Assembly (NCBI GenBank): GCA_024763075.1
Contig: JANTGF010000017.1
Coordinates: 1 to 55,990, forward strand
Source of the DNA: Bacteroidales bacterium
GTDB taxonomy: Bacteria > Bacteroidota > Bacteroidia > Bacteroidales > VadinHA17
Reading direction: 5' to 3'
DNA: 55,990 nucleotides
The translations under genes and the position numbers were made by a program. The notes under the pieces are model-generated. The model made no database searches, was not told the origin of the DNA, and saw only the letters and a program-made list of their open reading frames with translations. Below, piece by piece: positions 34,753 to 40,313 of the stretch (its first letter is position 1; the number at the start of each line of letters is the position of its first letter).

Positions 34753-34804
34753 TTGATATATGTTTGTTTTGTTTTTATGTTTAAAAGCACTAAACAGTGT
34801 GTTT

Positions 34805-34850
34805 CCATAAAGTCGGGTGTTCGAGCAACAATGCAGATATCGGACTTTAA
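34805..34850 (+). repeat. Short, core-less relative of the structured intergenic repeat
   Basis: It begins CCATAAAGTCGGGTGTT, repeated at 34875-34890 in front of the full element, and ends GCAGATATCGGACTTTA, which resembles GCAGATAGCGGACATTAT at the right end of the full element (34981-34998). TAAAGTC at 34808-34814 pairs with GACTTTA at 34843-34849. It looks like a tandem copy that has lost the conserved core. A small hairpin (GGACT at 34857-34861 with AGTCC at 34868-34872) lies between the two. Confidence 0.55.
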
Positions 34851-34892
34851 TCATAAGGACTAAATAGAGTCCATCCATAAAGTCGGTGTTTA

Positions 34893-35002
34893 GTTCAGAA
34901 TGTTCGCTATCAAGACTTTCGAAGTCTTAATAATCAGGAGTTTACTTTTGTAAATGACTGGTTTTTCAGACAAGAGTAACGCAGATAGCGGACATTATGG
35001 AC
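34893..35002 (+). repeat. Structured intergenic repeat, copy 1 (110 nt)
   Basis: The arms GTTCAGAATGTTCGCTATC (34893-34911) and GATAGCGGACATTATGGAC (34984-35002) pair over 19 positions: 16 Watson-Crick, two G-T wobbles and one mismatch. Inside are a hairpin AAGACTT-TCG-AAGTCTT (34912-34928) and another TTTAC-TTTT-GTAAA (34941-34954). The core from CTTTCGAAG to AACGCAG is shared with copy 2 in the opposite orientation. Together with the core-less relative it fills most of the pepD/dehydrogenase gap (34703-35165), which holds no other gene. Confidence 0.75.
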
Positions 35003-35165
35003 AAACACTAAACAGGATTGATTCTTTGTTTTAAATCCTAAGTTGCCCTTTTAATCCAAAGGAATAAAAAGATATCAGGTGAGTAAGAATATTTGCGAAA
35101 TATACTCTTTGCAGGGGTCTTAAATAATATTATTTTTACAAATAAAATTTTAAAACAATAAAACT

Positions 35166-36359
35166 ATGGCAAAAAGAAAGGTTGTTACTTTGCCCGGCGA
35201 TGGGATCGGGCATGTGGTTCTGGAGGAAACACTCAGGGTGTTGGAAAGTGCCGGATTCCAGGCAGAATATATAGAAGGCGATATAGGCTGGGAATATTGG
35301 TGTAAAGAGGGAAACCCGCTGCCTCAGAGAACAATAGATCTCATTGCTGAGCATAAAATTGCATTGTTCGGGGCAATAACCTCGAAACCCAAGGAGGAAG
35401 CAGTAAATGAATTATCGCCGGAATTACAGTCTGAAGGGTTGATATATTCAAGTCCTATTGTGGGCCTTCGGCAGCATTTTAATCTGGATATCTGTATCCG
35501 TCCCTGTCATACTTATGTTGGGAATCCTCTGAATTTTATCAGAAGGAGTACTGACGGAGGGGTAGATGAACCAAAAGTGGATGTGGTAATCTTTCGCCAG
35601 AATACCGAAGGATTGTACGGGGGAGTGGAATGGTCGGATCCACCTTCTCAGGTTTATGATGCACTTATGACCCATCCTAAATTCAAGAAAAATTTCGGAA
35701 AAATTCCGAAAGATGAAGTATCTGTTTCTACAAGAATTTTCACAAAAAGGGCTACAGAAAGAATTCTTCGTGCTGCATTTGATTATGCCGAAAAATATAA
35801 TTATAAATCGGTGACCGTATGTGAAAAACCAAATGTGATAAGGGAAACCTCAGGCATGATGTATCGTCTGGCAAAAGAAATGCAGAAAAAGGATTATCCT
35901 CAAATCGATCTGTGGAATACAAATATTGATGCCCAGATGATGTGGCTGACGAAGAATCCGGAAGATTACGGGGTGATTGTTGCCGGGAATATGTTTGGTG
36001 ATATTGTTTCGGATGGTTTTGCCGGACTGATTGGTGGTCTTGGATTTGCCTGCAGTGCCCAGTTTAATGATGCGGGCATTGGTATTTTTGAACCGACTCA
36101 CGGGTCTGCTCCAAAATACGCTTCGTATGAAACATCTATAGTAAATCCCATTGCAATGATTGAATCGGCCTGTATGATGCTTGATTTTATCGGAGAAAAG
36201 GAAATATCAAAAAAAATCAGAGCTGCAGTAGCAAAAGTAATTGTTGAAGCAAAGGTGCAGACCTATGATATGAAAAAGATGAAAGGGGCACCGGATGTTA
36301 TCCAAAAAGGTGCTGCCACTACAAAGGAAATGGCAGATGCGGTTATTGCGAATTTATAA
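35166..36359 (+). CDS. Isocitrate/isopropylmalate dehydrogenase family, probably isocitrate dehydrogenase
   Basis: A 397-residue beta-decarboxylating dehydrogenase. Key blocks: TLPGDGIGHVVLEETLRVL at the start, IRPCHTYVGNPLNF, VIFRQNTEGLYGGVEW (substrate and catalytic Tyr region), SVTVCEKPNVIRETSGMM, the metal-binding Asps in GNMFGDIVSDGFAGLIGGLG, and GIFEPTHGSAPKYA before the cofactor site. The RxNTEGxYxGxE pattern is of the isocitrate rather than the isopropylmalate type (which has LTGGIYFG), and no leu genes are nearby. It would make 2-oxoglutarate. The coenzyme (NAD or NADP) and a homoisocitrate-like role cannot be excluded. Confidence 0.82.
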   Translation: MAKRKVVTLPGDGIGHVVLEETLRVLESAGFQAEYIEGDIGWEYWCKEGNPLPQRTIDLIAEHKIALFGAITSKPKEEAVNELSPELQSEGLIYSSPIVGLRQHFNLDICIRPCHTYVGNPLNFIRRSTDGGVDEPKVDVVIFRQNTEGLYGGVEWSDPPSQVYDALMTHPKFKKNFGKIPKDEVSVSTRIFTKRATERILRAAFDYAEKYNYKSVTVCEKPNVIRETSGMMYRLAKEMQKKDYPQIDLWNTNIDAQMMWLTKNPEDYGVIVAGNMFGDIVSDGFAGLIGGLGFACSAQFNDAGIGIFEPTHGSAPKYASYETSIVNPIAMIESACMMLDFIGEKEISKKIRAAVAKVIVEAKVQTYDMKKMKGAPDVIQKGAATTKEMADAVIANL

Positions 36360-36518
36360 TAGAACAGAGGTGTAATGTGTGAATGCTTAAATGATTATTT
36401 TTAATATTACCAGTAATAATTCTTTTTTCATTCATTCATTTGGGCATTAAGGCATTCGATCATTTTAGATTACAATAATAATTTGGAAATAAACATTCTT
36501 AAATAAACAATAATAATT

Positions 36519-37064
36519 ATGTTAGAACAAATATATAAACTCTGGCCGGAACTGAACTGGATTGAGGATCAGAGACTAAGGGACAAGACTGCAAAAACCT
36601 GGATTCTTGCACTGGAAAGAAGTGTGCTGACTGCAGATGATCTGAATCAAATACCGTTTACTTTACTGGCTGATCCCGATTTAAAGGTCAGTTTTATGAT
36701 GCATAAAAGAGCCGTGGTTCATATAGCAAAGGAAAGCGGGGAGAAAATAAACCAATTTTTTGGTGATGAGCTTCCTGTGAACATGGATGTGCTGATCGCA
36801 GGAGCTATTCTTGCCGATGTGGGAAAACTGCTTGAATATGCAAAAGATGATGATGGTAAGGTTATTCAGGGTACTTACGGGAAACTACTGCGTCATCCTT
36901 TTTCCGGGGTTTCCCTGGCGGAAGAATGCGGCCTTCCCCCGGAAGTTTGTCACATTATAGCCACACATGCGGGTGAAGGGGATATGGTAAAAAGGACAGC
37001 AGAAGCTTATGTAGTGCATCATGCTGATTTTATGACTTTTTTGCCGTTTAAAAACAGATTTTGA
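36519..37064 (+). CDS. HD-domain protein with degenerate HD motif
   Basis: A 181-residue soluble protein of the HD phosphohydrolase superfamily. The usual order is visible: H62 in MHKRAVVHIA, then AGAILADVGKLLEYA where HD normally stands (A99-D100, so the His is replaced), then LLRHPFSGVSLAE, IIATHAGEGD and VVHHADFMTF. Several other histidines could still bind metal, so loss of activity is not certain. Related short HD proteins with LLADVGK are known in anaerobes, with no assigned substrate. It stands alone, 159 bases after the dehydrogenase. Confidence 0.75.
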   Translation: MLEQIYKLWPELNWIEDQRLRDKTAKTWILALERSVLTADDLNQIPFTLLADPDLKVSFMMHKRAVVHIAKESGEKINQFFGDELPVNMDVLIAGAILADVGKLLEYAKDDDGKVIQGTYGKLLRHPFSGVSLAEECGLPPEVCHIIATHAGEGDMVKRTAEAYVVHHADFMTFLPFKNRF

Positions 37065-37177
37065 AAAGCATGGATATCATTCCGGGGAGACTGAAGTTTT
37101 GTGTGTTTTGCAATTCCTCAGAAGGGATTTATTTTGAAGGGAAAACATGAAAGCATCATTTTTTAAATGCTTTTTCC

Positions 37178-37196
37178 TATTTTTGGAATACATTTG
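37178..37196 (+). promoter_or_regulatory. Two overlapping candidate -7 boxes for the SLC13/cysQ operon
   Basis: TATTTTTG (37178-37185) and TACATTTG (37189-37196) both fit TAnnTTTG. No TTG at a proper distance marks the -33 element, so support is partial. Confidence 0.35.
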
Positions 37197-37242
37197 TAAA
37201 AAAGTAATAGCAATTTAACCTGACTCATTTTAACAATCCCGG

Positions 37243-39021
37243 ATGATTACATTCGATCTTGTATTGGTAATCCTTGTTGTGATCTTCATTCTGATTTCAC
37301 TGTACAAGGAATTGTTTGGGCCCGCTCTGACTTTTCTGATCGGGATTGTTGTTCTTGGTATTTTTGGTGTGCTTACTCCCCGTGAGATAATCAGCGGATT
37401 TGCGAACGAACAGGTGATGGTTATCATCATGTTATTGCTTGTGAGCGATATCATCCGGCATACGGCCATTGCAGATATGCTGTTCTCAAAGGCTTTTTAT
37501 GGAGTACGGAGTTATAAACGGTTTTTGGGAAGAATGATGATCCTTGTTGCAGGTTTTTCTGCATTTTTGAATAATACTCCATTGGTTGCAGTCATGTTAC
37601 CTTATGTGAATAACTGGTCTGAAAAGTATAAAGTACCTGCATCCAAACTCTTGATGCCCTTATCGTTCGCTGCAATCCTGGGGGGATGTGCAACCCTGAT
37701 AGGCACCTCTACCAACCTGATTGTAAACGGGCTTGTTGTTGACCAGGATATTCTGCCCGGCCTGGAACCCCTGAATATTTTTGATTTTGTTTGGGTGGGT
37801 GTTCCCATGATCGTAATTGGGATTTTATTTATTTATTTTTTTAGTAATAAACTGCTGCCTGATAAGAATGCAAGGGTTGAAGATATACCTGAGTATCAGA
37901 GGACATACATGGTTGAATCGCTGGTTAACAAACATTCGGACCTGATTGGAAAAACGGTGGAACAATCCGGACTCAGGAACCTGAATGGTTTATTCCTGGT
38001 AGAAATCCGCAGGCAGAAAAAGGTTATGTTTGTGGTGCTAAATAATTTGATTATCGAAGAGGGAGACCTTCTAGTATTTGCCGGCGATAAAGCTCCGATT
38101 GCTGACCTGTTGGATGAAAATTCCGGACTTACCATTCCTTCAGTAGGTATGTTACAGCGAAAAAAACATACAGAGGTTGTGGAAGCAGTTGTCTCTCATA
38201 ATTCGAAATTTATAGGAAAACCATTAAAGGAGATTTTTTTCAGAAGAAGATATGATGCAGCTGTTATTTCAATCCACAGGAATGGGGAAAGAATTACCGG
38301 AAGACTCAGGGATGTTGAATTGAGGGCGGGAGATGTACTTTTGCTATATGCCGGTACTGAGTTCAGGGAAAGGATCAGAATGACACAGGATTTTTATCTC
38401 TTGTCGAAGATTAGACAGTTTGATAAGGTGGAGACGTATAAACTGGTGATTTTACTGGGTGGGCTGCTGCTTGCAATATTCCTGTCCTCCATCAAGGTCA
38501 TCTCATTATTCATGGGACTGATCATCCTTTTATTGGTTTCCTTTATTTTGAAACTCACAAATCCCAAGGATCTTTCCCGAAGTATCGATTATAACCTGGG
38601 ACTGATCATTGTGATGTCTCTGGCGCTTGGTATAGCAATGATCAAATCGGGTACTGCCCCCATGCTGGCGAACCTTTTAATTACTCTTTTTACACCCATG
38701 GGGAAGTACGGGATATTATTCGGGATATTCTTAATTACCTCTGTACTTGGTGCTTATATTACCGGTAAAGCTGCTGTTGCTATTATATTCCCCATTGCCG
38801 TAAGTATGTCCATTAGTCTGGGACTTGACCCGAAACCATTTATTCTTACGGTTGCCTATGCTGCTGCAGCTAATTTTATTACACCCATCGGCTATCAGAC
38901 CAACCTTATGATTTATGGTCCGGGTGGATACTCATTCCGTGACTTTTTTAAACTGGGATTCCCTTTAACAGTGATCTACATGTTTGTTACTATTTTTGTA
39001 CTTGGATTAATTTATTTTTAA
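37243..39021 (+). CDS. SLC13-family permease with two TrkA-C (RCK_C) domains, probable sulfate importer
   Basis: A 592-residue membrane transporter. Residues 1-~200 are TM helices with the family signature NNTPLVAVMLPYVNNW and CATLIGTSTNLIVNGLV. Two cytoplasmic RCK_C domains follow (~220-300 GKTVEQSGLRNLNGLFLVEI and ~310-395 GKPLKEIFFRRRYDAAVISI). The second TM half (~405-592) carries the paired motif ITPIGYQTNLMIYGPGGY. Members move anions such as sulfate or dicarboxylates, usually with Na+. The stop codon overlaps the cysQ ATG (TAATG), and this coupling to a PAP phosphatase favours sulfate as the substrate. Confidence 0.88.
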   Translation: MITFDLVLVILVVIFILISLYKELFGPALTFLIGIVVLGIFGVLTPREIISGFANEQVMVIIMLLLVSDIIRHTAIADMLFSKAFYGVRSYKRFLGRMMILVAGFSAFLNNTPLVAVMLPYVNNWSEKYKVPASKLLMPLSFAAILGGCATLIGTSTNLIVNGLVVDQDILPGLEPLNIFDFVWVGVPMIVIGILFIYFFSNKLLPDKNARVEDIPEYQRTYMVESLVNKHSDLIGKTVEQSGLRNLNGLFLVEIRRQKKVMFVVLNNLIIEEGDLLVFAGDKAPIADLLDENSGLTIPSVGMLQRKKHTEVVEAVVSHNSKFIGKPLKEIFFRRRYDAAVISIHRNGERITGRLRDVELRAGDVLLLYAGTEFRERIRMTQDFYLLSKIRQFDKVETYKLVILLGGLLLAIFLSSIKVISLFMGLIILLLVSFILKLTNPKDLSRSIDYNLGLIIVMSLALGIAMIKSGTAPMLANLLITLFTPMGKYGILFGIFLITSVLGAYITGKAAVAIIFPIAVSMSISLGLDPKPFILTVAYAAAANFITPIGYQTNLMIYGPGGYSFRDFFKLGFPLTVIYMFVTIFVLGLIYF

Positions 39022-39857
39022 TGATGAAAAGCCCTTCACCTTTTTACAGAAACCTTGTTTTAACGGCCATAGACCTTTCCCGGAAGGCAGGTCTGGACAT
39101 TCTTGATGTTTATTATCATTCTGATTTTGAGATTGAAATAAAAAGTGATAAGTCCCCTCTGACCATTGCTGATAAAAGGTCGCATATCCGGATTGTTGAA
39201 GGCCTGGAAAATACGGAAATCCCTGTTTTGAGTGAGGAATCAGCAGGAATTACTTATGAGGAAAGAAAACACTGGGATCGCTTCTGGCTGGTTGATCCGC
39301 TGGATGGCACCAAGGAGTTTATAAAAAAGAACGATGAATTTACAGTAAACATTGCATTGATTGAAAACGGTAAACCTGTTCTGGGAGTTATATATCTGCC
39401 TGTTTTTGATGAAATGTATTTCGGTTTGAAAGGGACGGGCTCTTTCAGGATTCCGGCCTTTAAGGAGTTGGGCGCAGACCTTGAATGGGAGTTTCTGATA
39501 GATTCTGCTGATAAACTACCTTCAGCATCAAAAGGGAGCAATGTGAGAGTGGTTGCCAGCCGTTCCCATTTATCTGCAGAGACACAGGAGTTTATTGATA
39601 ATTTGAAAAGCAAATATGGTGAAGTTTCGACAGTAGCAGCCGGAAGCTCACTAAAGCTCTGCCTTATTGCTGAAGGGCGTGCTGAAATTTATCCCCGGCT
39701 GGGACCAACCATGGAATGGGATATTGCCGCGGGACACAGTATTATATCTGCTGCCGGAGGTAGTATTTATAAAAGGGATGGAAGTGAACTGGAGTATAAC
39801 AAAGAGAATTTGTTAAACCCCTGGTTTATTGCCCGCTCAAAATATTTTTTGGAATAA
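39021..39857 (+). CDS. cysQ: 3'(2'),5'-bisphosphate nucleotidase CysQ
   Basis: A 278-residue member of the inositol-monophosphatase fold. Metal-site motifs: SEESAGI (Glu), WLVDPLDGTKEFIKKNDEFT (the DPLDGTxxF block) and TMEWDIAAGHSII (WDxAAG). It removes the 3'-phosphate from PAP, the by-product of PAPS reduction, in the cytoplasm. Translation is coupled to the SLC13 permease by the TAATG overlap, forming a two-gene sulfate-assimilation unit; the reductase genes are elsewhere. Confidence 0.95.
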   Translation: MMKSPSPFYRNLVLTAIDLSRKAGLDILDVYYHSDFEIEIKSDKSPLTIADKRSHIRIVEGLENTEIPVLSEESAGITYEERKHWDRFWLVDPLDGTKEFIKKNDEFTVNIALIENGKPVLGVIYLPVFDEMYFGLKGTGSFRIPAFKELGADLEWEFLIDSADKLPSASKGSNVRVVASRSHLSAETQEFIDNLKSKYGEVSTVAAGSSLKLCLIAEGRAEIYPRLGPTMEWDIAAGHSIISAAGGSIYKRDGSELEYNKENLLNPWFIARSKYFLE

Positions 39858-40052
39858 CTTCTGGTAAGAATTCTGAAATTTATCAATCCTGTTCCTTGAT
39901 TTGGTTCTTGTCTTTTGATTTTTGACAAGACAGGCGGAAATACTAAATCGGTTGATCCCGAAGCATGTCGCATGATATCTAATCGCTAATGCTATCAAAA
40001 TGTGACTTCGCTGAGCTCCGGGTCATATAATATTATGCGGGTTACAAAAATA

Positions 40053-40069
40053 TGACTCCTCCGGAGTCA
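40053..40069. repeat. Short perfect hairpin (TGACTCC / GGAGTCA)
   Basis: A 7-bp perfect inverted repeat with a 3-base loop. The nearby TGACTTCGC...GGGTCA at ~39999-40024 looks like a weaker relative. It resembles a small REP-like palindrome and is not followed by a T run, so it is not a terminator. Confidence 0.45.
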
Positions 40070-40120
40070 ACTGTCTGTTCTGATTGTGACCAGGATGCAT
40101 GACATTTCTAAACCTAATTA

Positions 40121-40243
40121 GTGTCTCTTAGAAAACGCCAAATACTGCGTTATTCTCGTTTTGGAAACGGTCATTTACAAAAGTAAACTCCCTAATTTTC
40201 AAAGCTTCGAAAGCCTTGTCTTTGGCGTCTTCTAAGAAGCCAC
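40121..40243 (-). repeat. Structured intergenic repeat, copy 2 (123 nt, inverted relative to copy 1)
   Basis: Read on the minus strand, arms GTGGCTTCTTAGAAGACGCC (right end) and GGCGTTTTCTAAGAGACAC (left end) pair over about 20 positions, with a G-T wobble where one strand would otherwise show A-C. The arms are unlike those of copy 1. Between them the core aligns closely with copy 1: AAGGCTT-TCG-AAGCTTT hairpin, AGGGAGTTTACTTTTG, TAAATGACCGTTT and AATAACGCAG. The inner hairpin differs from copy 1 by a paired change A-T to G-C. Confidence 0.78.
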
Positions 40244-40313
40244 TCAAAAAGTTAAGAGTTTTCTTAAAAGCACTAATTATAAGTACGATAGTCTCGAAGA
40301 TTTGCAATATTAG

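Follow-up and report, generated by a model that had tools for sequence, protein, structure and literature searches.

ERIC elements have been in use for typing for decades, and to our knowledge both the enzyme that mobilises them and the reason for their conserved middle remain open. In the literature, ERIC is described as enterobacterial and vibrionacean (PMC10969869), and each of ERIC, Correia, YPAL and others is handled as a family of its own (PMC2229807, PMC10969869, PMC2267715). Reviews report an orientation-dependent effect of ERIC RNA on the stability of its host mRNA in Yersinia, and cleavage of Correia RNA by RNase III (PMC2229807, PMC10969869). For Bacteroidota, PMC9769881 describes a miniature inverted-repeat transposable element (MITE) of Cardinium that is derived from IS982. 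In the open-access literature, outside which most subscription papers lie, we found no paper linking ERIC to elements of other phyla or joining these families across phyla. Here, we consider two copies of a repeat in a 55,990-nucleotide stretch of a Bacteroidales genome (assembly GCA_024763075.1, contig JANTGF010000017.1, positions 1 to 55,990; the whole stretch is referred to as the window), which an earlier note had read as a structured RNA or a hairpin DNA substrate rather than an ordinary MITE.

That framing was half right, in that the element is both mobile and a conserved structure, is of the ERIC kind and has exchangeable ends. Covariation, a G·U strand bias and a conserved tandem G·A loop uphold the structural part of it; the opposition to a MITE does not hold, since the element is a MITE as well. 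With both readings supported, we regard the repeats as a MITE family carrying a conserved structure, which is a more interesting finding than a plain MITE. We observed a mobility signature, a structure, a strand bias, a spread across bacteria and an insertion sequence (IS) with matching ends. The likely explanation, in our view, is that these transposons are non-autonomous, depend on a variety of transposases acting in trans, and have in common a module of the ERIC type with a probable role as RNA.

Results

The first element, copy 1, is of type B and, by its ends and length, occupies 142 bp of the plus strand (34867..35008, GAGTCC...AAACAC); copy 2 is of type A, measures 153 bp and lies on the minus strand (40121..40273, GTGCTTTT...GAGACAC). 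R1, a model built from Bacteroidota copies only, matches copy 1 at 34886-35009 with 125.4 bits, a score raised on a model whose training set includes close relatives of this copy, and copy 2 at 40120-40243 with 115.8 bits. The plus-strand parts of copy 1 begin with the left target duplication TAAATA (34861..34866), followed by an outer left terminal repeat, L1 (34867..34885), a second left repeat, L2, which is the left strand of stem P1 and corresponds to the arm recognised earlier (34886..34911), the core (34912..34983), the right end R, which serves as both the right P1 strand and the right terminal repeat (34984..35008), and the right target duplication TAAACA (35009..35014), identical to the left one at 5/6 positions. 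The core itself runs through an AAGAC loop, helices P1b and P2, a tandem G·A step, P3 and an AACGCA loop, with the apex GAGTTTACTTTTGTAAATGAC at 34938..34958. On the minus strand, copy 2 is flanked by TAATTA on the left (40274..40279) and on the right (40115..40120), and consists of L1 with a spacer (40244..40273), L2 (40218..40243), the core (40146..40217) with the apex GAGTTTACTTTTGTAAATGAC (40170..40190), and R (40121..40145). The earlier note had seen two copies with a shared core, and a 22-nt centre is indeed identical in both (no match in 100 shuffles); it placed them correctly, but its extents were too short and missed L1 and the target duplications. Both copies also fold as structures, as it had proposed, with z-scores against shuffles of -7.45 for copy 1 and -6.50 for copy 2. 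There is no transposase gene within the 142 and 153 bp of the two elements. Directly upstream of copy 1, at 34795-34860, lies a decayed, core-less relative whose end matches the terminal repeat at 3 mismatches.

The window's genome is a 4.59-Mb draft in 197 contigs, and several copies in it are cut by contig ends. It contains 61 matches of the 21-nt apex at up to 3 mismatches, compared with 0 for the reversed control, and about 60 copies of the core. A loose letter test places 52 of the 61 apex matches in type A or B, the classes being loose enough for 26 of the 61 rows to pass both letter tests; of the 9 matches that are neither, 8 are diverged family members, and the last, L060, clearly falls in coding sequence and has no further part of the core. 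Among A-type copies with both ends readable, the TAnnTA 6-mers that flank the element are identical in 18 of 24, and the length is 153 bp in 21 of 24; the corresponding B-type copies have identical 6-mers in two of four cases and a length of 142 bp in all four. The ends of the window types are GAG/GTG...CAC with TAnnTA, and in both types there are two left repeats, L1 at the outer end beside the target duplication and L2, each complementary to R. With terminal inverted repeats, target-site duplications, many copies and no internal transposase gene, these repeats are MITEs; constant terminal repeats and target duplications, the signs of a plain MITE that the earlier note had named as refuting its reading, are present. 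The arms are self-complementary pairs that differ between the two window copies, as reported before, but since ends and lengths are constant within a type they are fixed in each of types A and B rather than specific to each copy.

Some further arrangements were seen in passing. The window's genome holds another class of 146 or 182 bp (G000 C4:65862-66043, C10:1485-1666, C20:11550-11695 and C61:14113-14294), bounded by terminal repeats that resemble TAGTGTGTGTCCATAAAGTCGA and TAGTGTTTGTCTTTAAAGTCCG. At L205:867-1309 and L199, two or three members stand head to tail in arrays, with one TATTTA common to neighbours, as if each had inserted at the previous duplication. Other palindromic repeats are nested in the internal loops of members at L218:2716-2852, L103, L107 and L196, as if these loops were favoured targets.

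The family extends well beyond this genome. The end TAGWGTYTGTCYATAAAGTC, with 1 mismatch allowed, is present in 64 of 295 genomes of the order, at up to 170 sites per genome, and exact scanning of genome contigs for the core gave at least 117 stretches, which come from several classes of Bacteroidota (among them the isolate Cryomorpha ignava) and, among the matches listed, from two Chlorobiota-labelled stretches and from Gammaproteobacteria (Chromatiales, Sedimenticola and others) that are, by their titles, metagenome-assembled genomes, several of them independent. With R1, 28 of 395 genomes of the phylum prove to carry copies; 26 of the 28 belong to a single family, probably Chlorobiaceae, and the copies in it are hence called Chlorobiaceae-like. 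A second model, R2, made from Bacteroidota and Chlorobiaceae-like copies and no Proteobacteria, has 38 matches in the genome of one Sedimenticola locus, 36 of them at 36 bits or more. Viral contigs gave 0 core matches, and blastn against plasmids gave no match for window copy 1 or for a gammaproteobacterial copy. When a Chlorobiaceae-like copy was the query, blastn matched 18 records of the plasmid collection (Escherichia, Salmonella, Klebsiella, Yersinia, Aeromonas and Comamonas), 16 of them at 80-90% identity, the matched stretch being the core. Five of these records were examined, and their arms are of the GGCGTAATTG or GGCGTAATCG type in four and of another type in Comamonas. In L304, L305, L307 and L308 an enterobacterial and Aeromonas repeat was seen to carry GGCGTAATTG-type arms around the same core. 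The core is thus common to Bacteroidota, Chlorobiaceae-like, Comamonas, Enterobacteriaceae and Chromatiales-type gammaproteobacterial elements, and the arms are unrelated.

The layout with two left repeats is present again in the gammaproteobacterial elements, where L1 is GTAACTATTCAGC and L2 is GTAACTGTTCAGATTGCCCC. In 46 of 53 such copies a script located both ends, and in 44 of the 46 there were 8 bases on each side; perfect 8-bp duplications are found in 23 of these 44 (22 at L1 and one, L197, at L2), with 6 more matching at 7/8 positions. The duplication at L2 in L197 means that L2 can act as an end. The arrangement suggests, as we infer, that L1 is an addition that left L2 available to pair with R. 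The combination of GTAA ends and 8-bp duplications may point to the IS66 family.

For the comparative analysis of structure, 225 distinct stretches were listed, from which six likely chance coding matches (L060-L063, L066 and L067) and the duplicate loci L069, L080, L083, L086 and L087 were dropped. The 179 copies with full flanks were kept and reduced to 55 at under 82% identity, and from these 55 we picked by hand the 30 Bacteroidota copies of alignment A2, excluding truncated, insert-bearing, gammaproteobacterial and third-arm-type (L240) rows so that the arms could be aligned. Alignment A6 has 31 rows, including Chlorobiaceae-like copies, with a score cut-off on 30 hand-picked loci; its rows were fitted to the model and therefore lean towards it. 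Alignment A1 (36 rows) served for viewing only, and A3, A4 (51 rows, with reverse-strand and insert-bearing matches) and A5 (misaligned by MAFFT) were not used for counts.

RNAalifold on A2 yields 38 pairs, 28 of them changed on both sides; 91.9% of cells are paired, and 177 cells are changed on both sides compared with 54 in shuffles and 37-58 when the rows are slid, counts which treat copies related by descent as independent and are not probabilities. With the same reservation, 32 of 38 pairs are changed on both sides in A6, and 267 cells compared with 97 in shuffles. The helices are P1 (L2 with R), P1b (3 pairs), P2 and, under the apical loop, P3, which a tandem GA/GA step separates from P2. 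P2, in which the 3' half of the inner hairpin pairs with sequence beyond the apex, covaries to a degree reached by 0 of 500 shuffles, and P3 is GTTTAC/GTAAAT in some lineages and GTGTAC/GTACAT in others. Single-copy folding covered four arm classes, the window copies among them, and gave z-scores against shuffles of -10.1 for the gammaproteobacterial L105, -8.1 for the third arm type L240 and -10.2 for the type B-like L115. The core is a conserved structure.

The particular fold that had been proposed fared less well. An inner hairpin, AAGACTT/AAGTCTT, was said to show compensatory change, but across relatives it does not covary (76.9% paired compared with 76.2% in shuffles, 140 of 500 of which reach it), although copy 2 taken alone does fold with it. 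A second hairpin, TTTAC/GTAAA, was described as invariant; it is TGTAC/GTACA in other lineages, and it is a different hairpin altogether in L089 and L090. In these two loci (G000 C5 and C34) the other apical hairpin stands between unchanged GGAG and TGAC in place of TTTAC/GTAAA. The shape is also not multi-branched: it is one long hairpin with internal loops, and R1 and R2 have 0 branch points.

Given the mobility signature, one might regard the structure as a by-product of inverted repeats and recent amplification in an ordinary MITE, with no selected function. The constant ends, the target duplications, the many near-identical copies and the lack of orientation bias relative to genes are all compatible with this. 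However, P1b, P2 and P3 are not terminal repeats and yet covary between families and genomes, the apical stem has been swapped for another stem in L089 and L090, and from Bacteroidota to Enterobacteria the letters AAGGC and AACG are retained in the loops. The covariation of the inner helices largely refutes an origin as a mere by-product, which we consider very improbable.

A coding explanation was also weighed, in which a small protein gene, with the open reading MFEFEACEVLKIKEFTFVNDCF..., has left the core as its remnant, and this we find scarcely credible. Some copies are open through the core into the flank, and there are weak matches at E 0.018 and 0.049 in frames of 814 and 488 codons, but the frames that hold a match with E <=0.01 reach no more than 135 codons (60 genomes), the type B sequence is one base shorter and so breaks the frame, and covariation and indels track helices rather than codons. 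The 814-codon frame starts inside the element at L090, a copy outside the orientation test described below, and runs on into downstream sequence. We rejected the small protein gene on the lack of such a match in the 60 genomes and on the frame shift in type B.

A concrete candidate for the mobilising enzyme comes from another genome of the same order (G206), which contains a 1,642-bp IS (L324) with the ends GTGTCTGTCCATAAACTC and GTGTCTGTCCATAATGTC (together GTGTCTGTCCATAA) and TAATTA on both flanks. Its 443-residue frame scores above the NCBIfam ISNCY cut-off (332 compared with 325 bits) and matches Pfam DDE_Tnp_1. The type B elements agree with it in part in their ends, and in the TAnnTA-type duplication: in copy 1, R is identical to the right end of the IS at 18/20 positions, and L1 is identical to its two ends at 14/20 and 15/20. 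L324 differs from the window elements in encoding a transposase, and its ends differ from those of type A; no core was found inside it by the model. In further searches for an autonomous partner, the sites listed for the window's genome included no long end pair, and in G334, among the sites listed of 144, there was one 2-kb pair (L248) without a frame of more than 178 codons. A mutual blast comparison of 44 open reading frames adjoining unpaired ends linked no two loci, and the long end pairs inspected, L176, L198, L205, L218 and L247, showed no transposase by eye.

The arms were said to deviate mostly as G·U pairs when read on the core strand, and this is borne out by the 30 relatives in A2, where odd pairs comprise 131 G·U and 16 A·C cells. 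P1 alone has 60 and 10, and the inner helices, counted without a near-invariant G·U pair, have 43 and 6. Since the opposite strand would turn G·U into A·C, the excess indicates that one strand is constrained, which fits either RNA or one strand of DNA. In a rival reading, the structure acts as single-stranded DNA that folds in replication or transposition and is bound by the transposase or a host factor, RNA being irrelevant. Such a role would suit the mobility of the copies and the double use of the P1 strands as terminal repeats, and the nested L1 and L2, both complementary to R, do look like transposase sites, with the 8-bp duplication of L197 lying at L2. It is less easily reconciled with the ISNCY element, which has the same ends without a model-detectable core, so that its transposase seems not to need the core, or with the association of the same core with at least two duplication types; the G·U excess and tandem G·A are moreover typical of RNA, though G·T in DNA is possible. 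Action as single-stranded DNA appears unlikely.

Compared with ERIC (IRU, RU-1), the window elements have the same general form, a single long imperfect stem-loop of about 127 bp in ERIC and of 142 and 153 bp here, and E. coli ERIC folds into the same shape. The two have in common the apex CAGGAG-YTTAC-nnnn-GTAAR-TGACTG, the equally spaced loop letters AAGGC and AACG and the tandem G·A core. They differ in their ends, TATACTC...GAGTATA as against GTG...CAC, and in their hosts, which belong to another phylum; ERIC makes TA duplications, according to PMC2759123, as against the TAnnTA of the window elements. The ERIC primer core is present in 5373 of 5426 E. coli genomes. R1 aligns to full-length ERIC with 27.1 and 23.9 bits and reaches nothing above 12 bits elsewhere in 6 kb, and R2 aligns over the full length with 29.6 and 26.0 bits. 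Once the likeness to ERIC had been seen, we defined a spaced pattern of 21 bases, AAGGC-(6-24)-GAGnnTACnnnnGTAnnTGA-(6-22)-AACG. Both ERIC loci and copy 2 of the window fit it exactly (copy 1 has AAGAC for AAGGC), and it occurs in 4 of 395 genomes of the phylum, compared with 0 of 395 for its reversed form. It is unmatched in the four enterobacterial and Aeromonas repeats, in Comamonas and in Correia. The earlier note recognised no known RNA family, and for Rfam this holds, with 0 matches in the window at the gathering score and, at relaxed E, only matches far below gathering scores; the element nonetheless resembles a known repeat, ERIC/IRU.

If the likeness had arisen by convergence, rather than by common descent or module exchange, one would expect the unrelated arms and ends and the low model scores of ERIC that are seen. 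Convergence would also have to account for the equal spacing of the unpaired AAGGC and AACG, and for an ERIC apex with 21 of 26 letters identical to copy 1, in which the two differing letters outside the 4-nt loop are P3 partners (T-A as against C-G) and so form a compensated pair. Other Proteobacteria, in addition, score higher than ERIC: R2 gave 62.6 bits for Comamonas, 38.6 for Klebsiella and 34.4 for Aeromonas among the five records, followed by 27.9 and 27.4. We therefore judge convergence improbable.

Two other families were considered for comparison. Correia/NEMIS of Neisseria is likewise a folding MITE and by eye shows AAGGCGACGAAG and GGCAACGCC (L309:609-747, Neisseria gonorrhoeae), but R2 gives only 9.1 and 8.7 bits (E 1.7 and 2.1), the 9.1-bit placement being the best on the L309 locus, and kinship is not supported. 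YPAL/RU-2 of Yersinia is an enterobacterial palindromic MITE of about 168 bp, and the RU-2 sequence printed in PMC2759123 is by eye without the core. YPAL was considered as the identity of the enterobacterial blastn matches and dropped after comparison with this RU-2 sequence.

Discussion

In the explanation we favour, a DDE transposase provided in trans would use L1 and R as its terminal repeats. With the B-type ends in Bacteroidota this would most likely be an ISNCY-family transposase that duplicates TAnnTA, and in Gammaproteobacteria it would be another enzyme, making 8-bp duplications next to GTAA ends. The middle of the element would be an ERIC-type hairpin, in which L2 pairs with R to form P1, followed by the internal loop AAGGC / AACGnAG, P2, the tandem G·A and P3. 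Selection appears to act on one strand of this module, most probably in the form of RNA within read-through transcripts, and by analogy with ERIC in Yersinia the RNA may affect the processing or stability of the mRNA in which it lands. All of the cores may share a common descent.

Several observations weigh against this explanation. The covariation counts, as noted, do not allow for descent, and in A6, with the Chlorobiaceae-like copies included, the strand bias is weaker, at 93 G·U to 41 A·C cells. A role in mRNA might be expected to leave an orientation bias, and none was seen in the window's genome, where the neighbouring gene is on the same strand in 16 of 31 cases upstream and 15 of 31 downstream of the copies. 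The other fractions in this test, which used simple frame calls on 144 copies with enough flank, are 32/76 upstream and 28/76 downstream in other Bacteroidota and 19/37 and 14/37 in Gammaproteobacteria; no frame of at least 120 codons spans any copy in it. The ERIC scores are modest, and family members read on the reverse strand, where the arms are shared, score as high as 37 bits, so that bit scores near 30 count for little on their own and it is the spaced pattern and the intermediates that carry the ERIC argument. Finally, type A ends are identical to those of L324 at only 9-12/20 positions, and no ISNCY transposase was found in the window's own genome, a draft in which an empty answer proves nothing.

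A broader reading, which we put forward tentatively and rate at somewhat less than an even chance, is that one structured RNA module, so far known only from the central part of ERIC in Enterobacteria and Vibrionaceae, is distributed over several phyla and has repeatedly been joined to unrelated transposon ends, hitchhiking on any transposase, with the L2:R stem rewritten each time so that the fold is kept. The end types concerned would be the ISNCY type with TAnnTA, GTAA with 8-bp duplications, and ends of the GGGCACCTCTA and GGGGACTTC kind.

The covarying core in MITEs of Bacteroidota, Chlorobiaceae-like genomes, Betaproteobacteria and Chromatiales provides a comparative data set on whether selection maintains the middle of ERIC as an RNA, and the ISNCY element, through its matching ends, offers a concrete transposase candidate. 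These data also suggest that a single covariance model could find and mask a common class of repeats.

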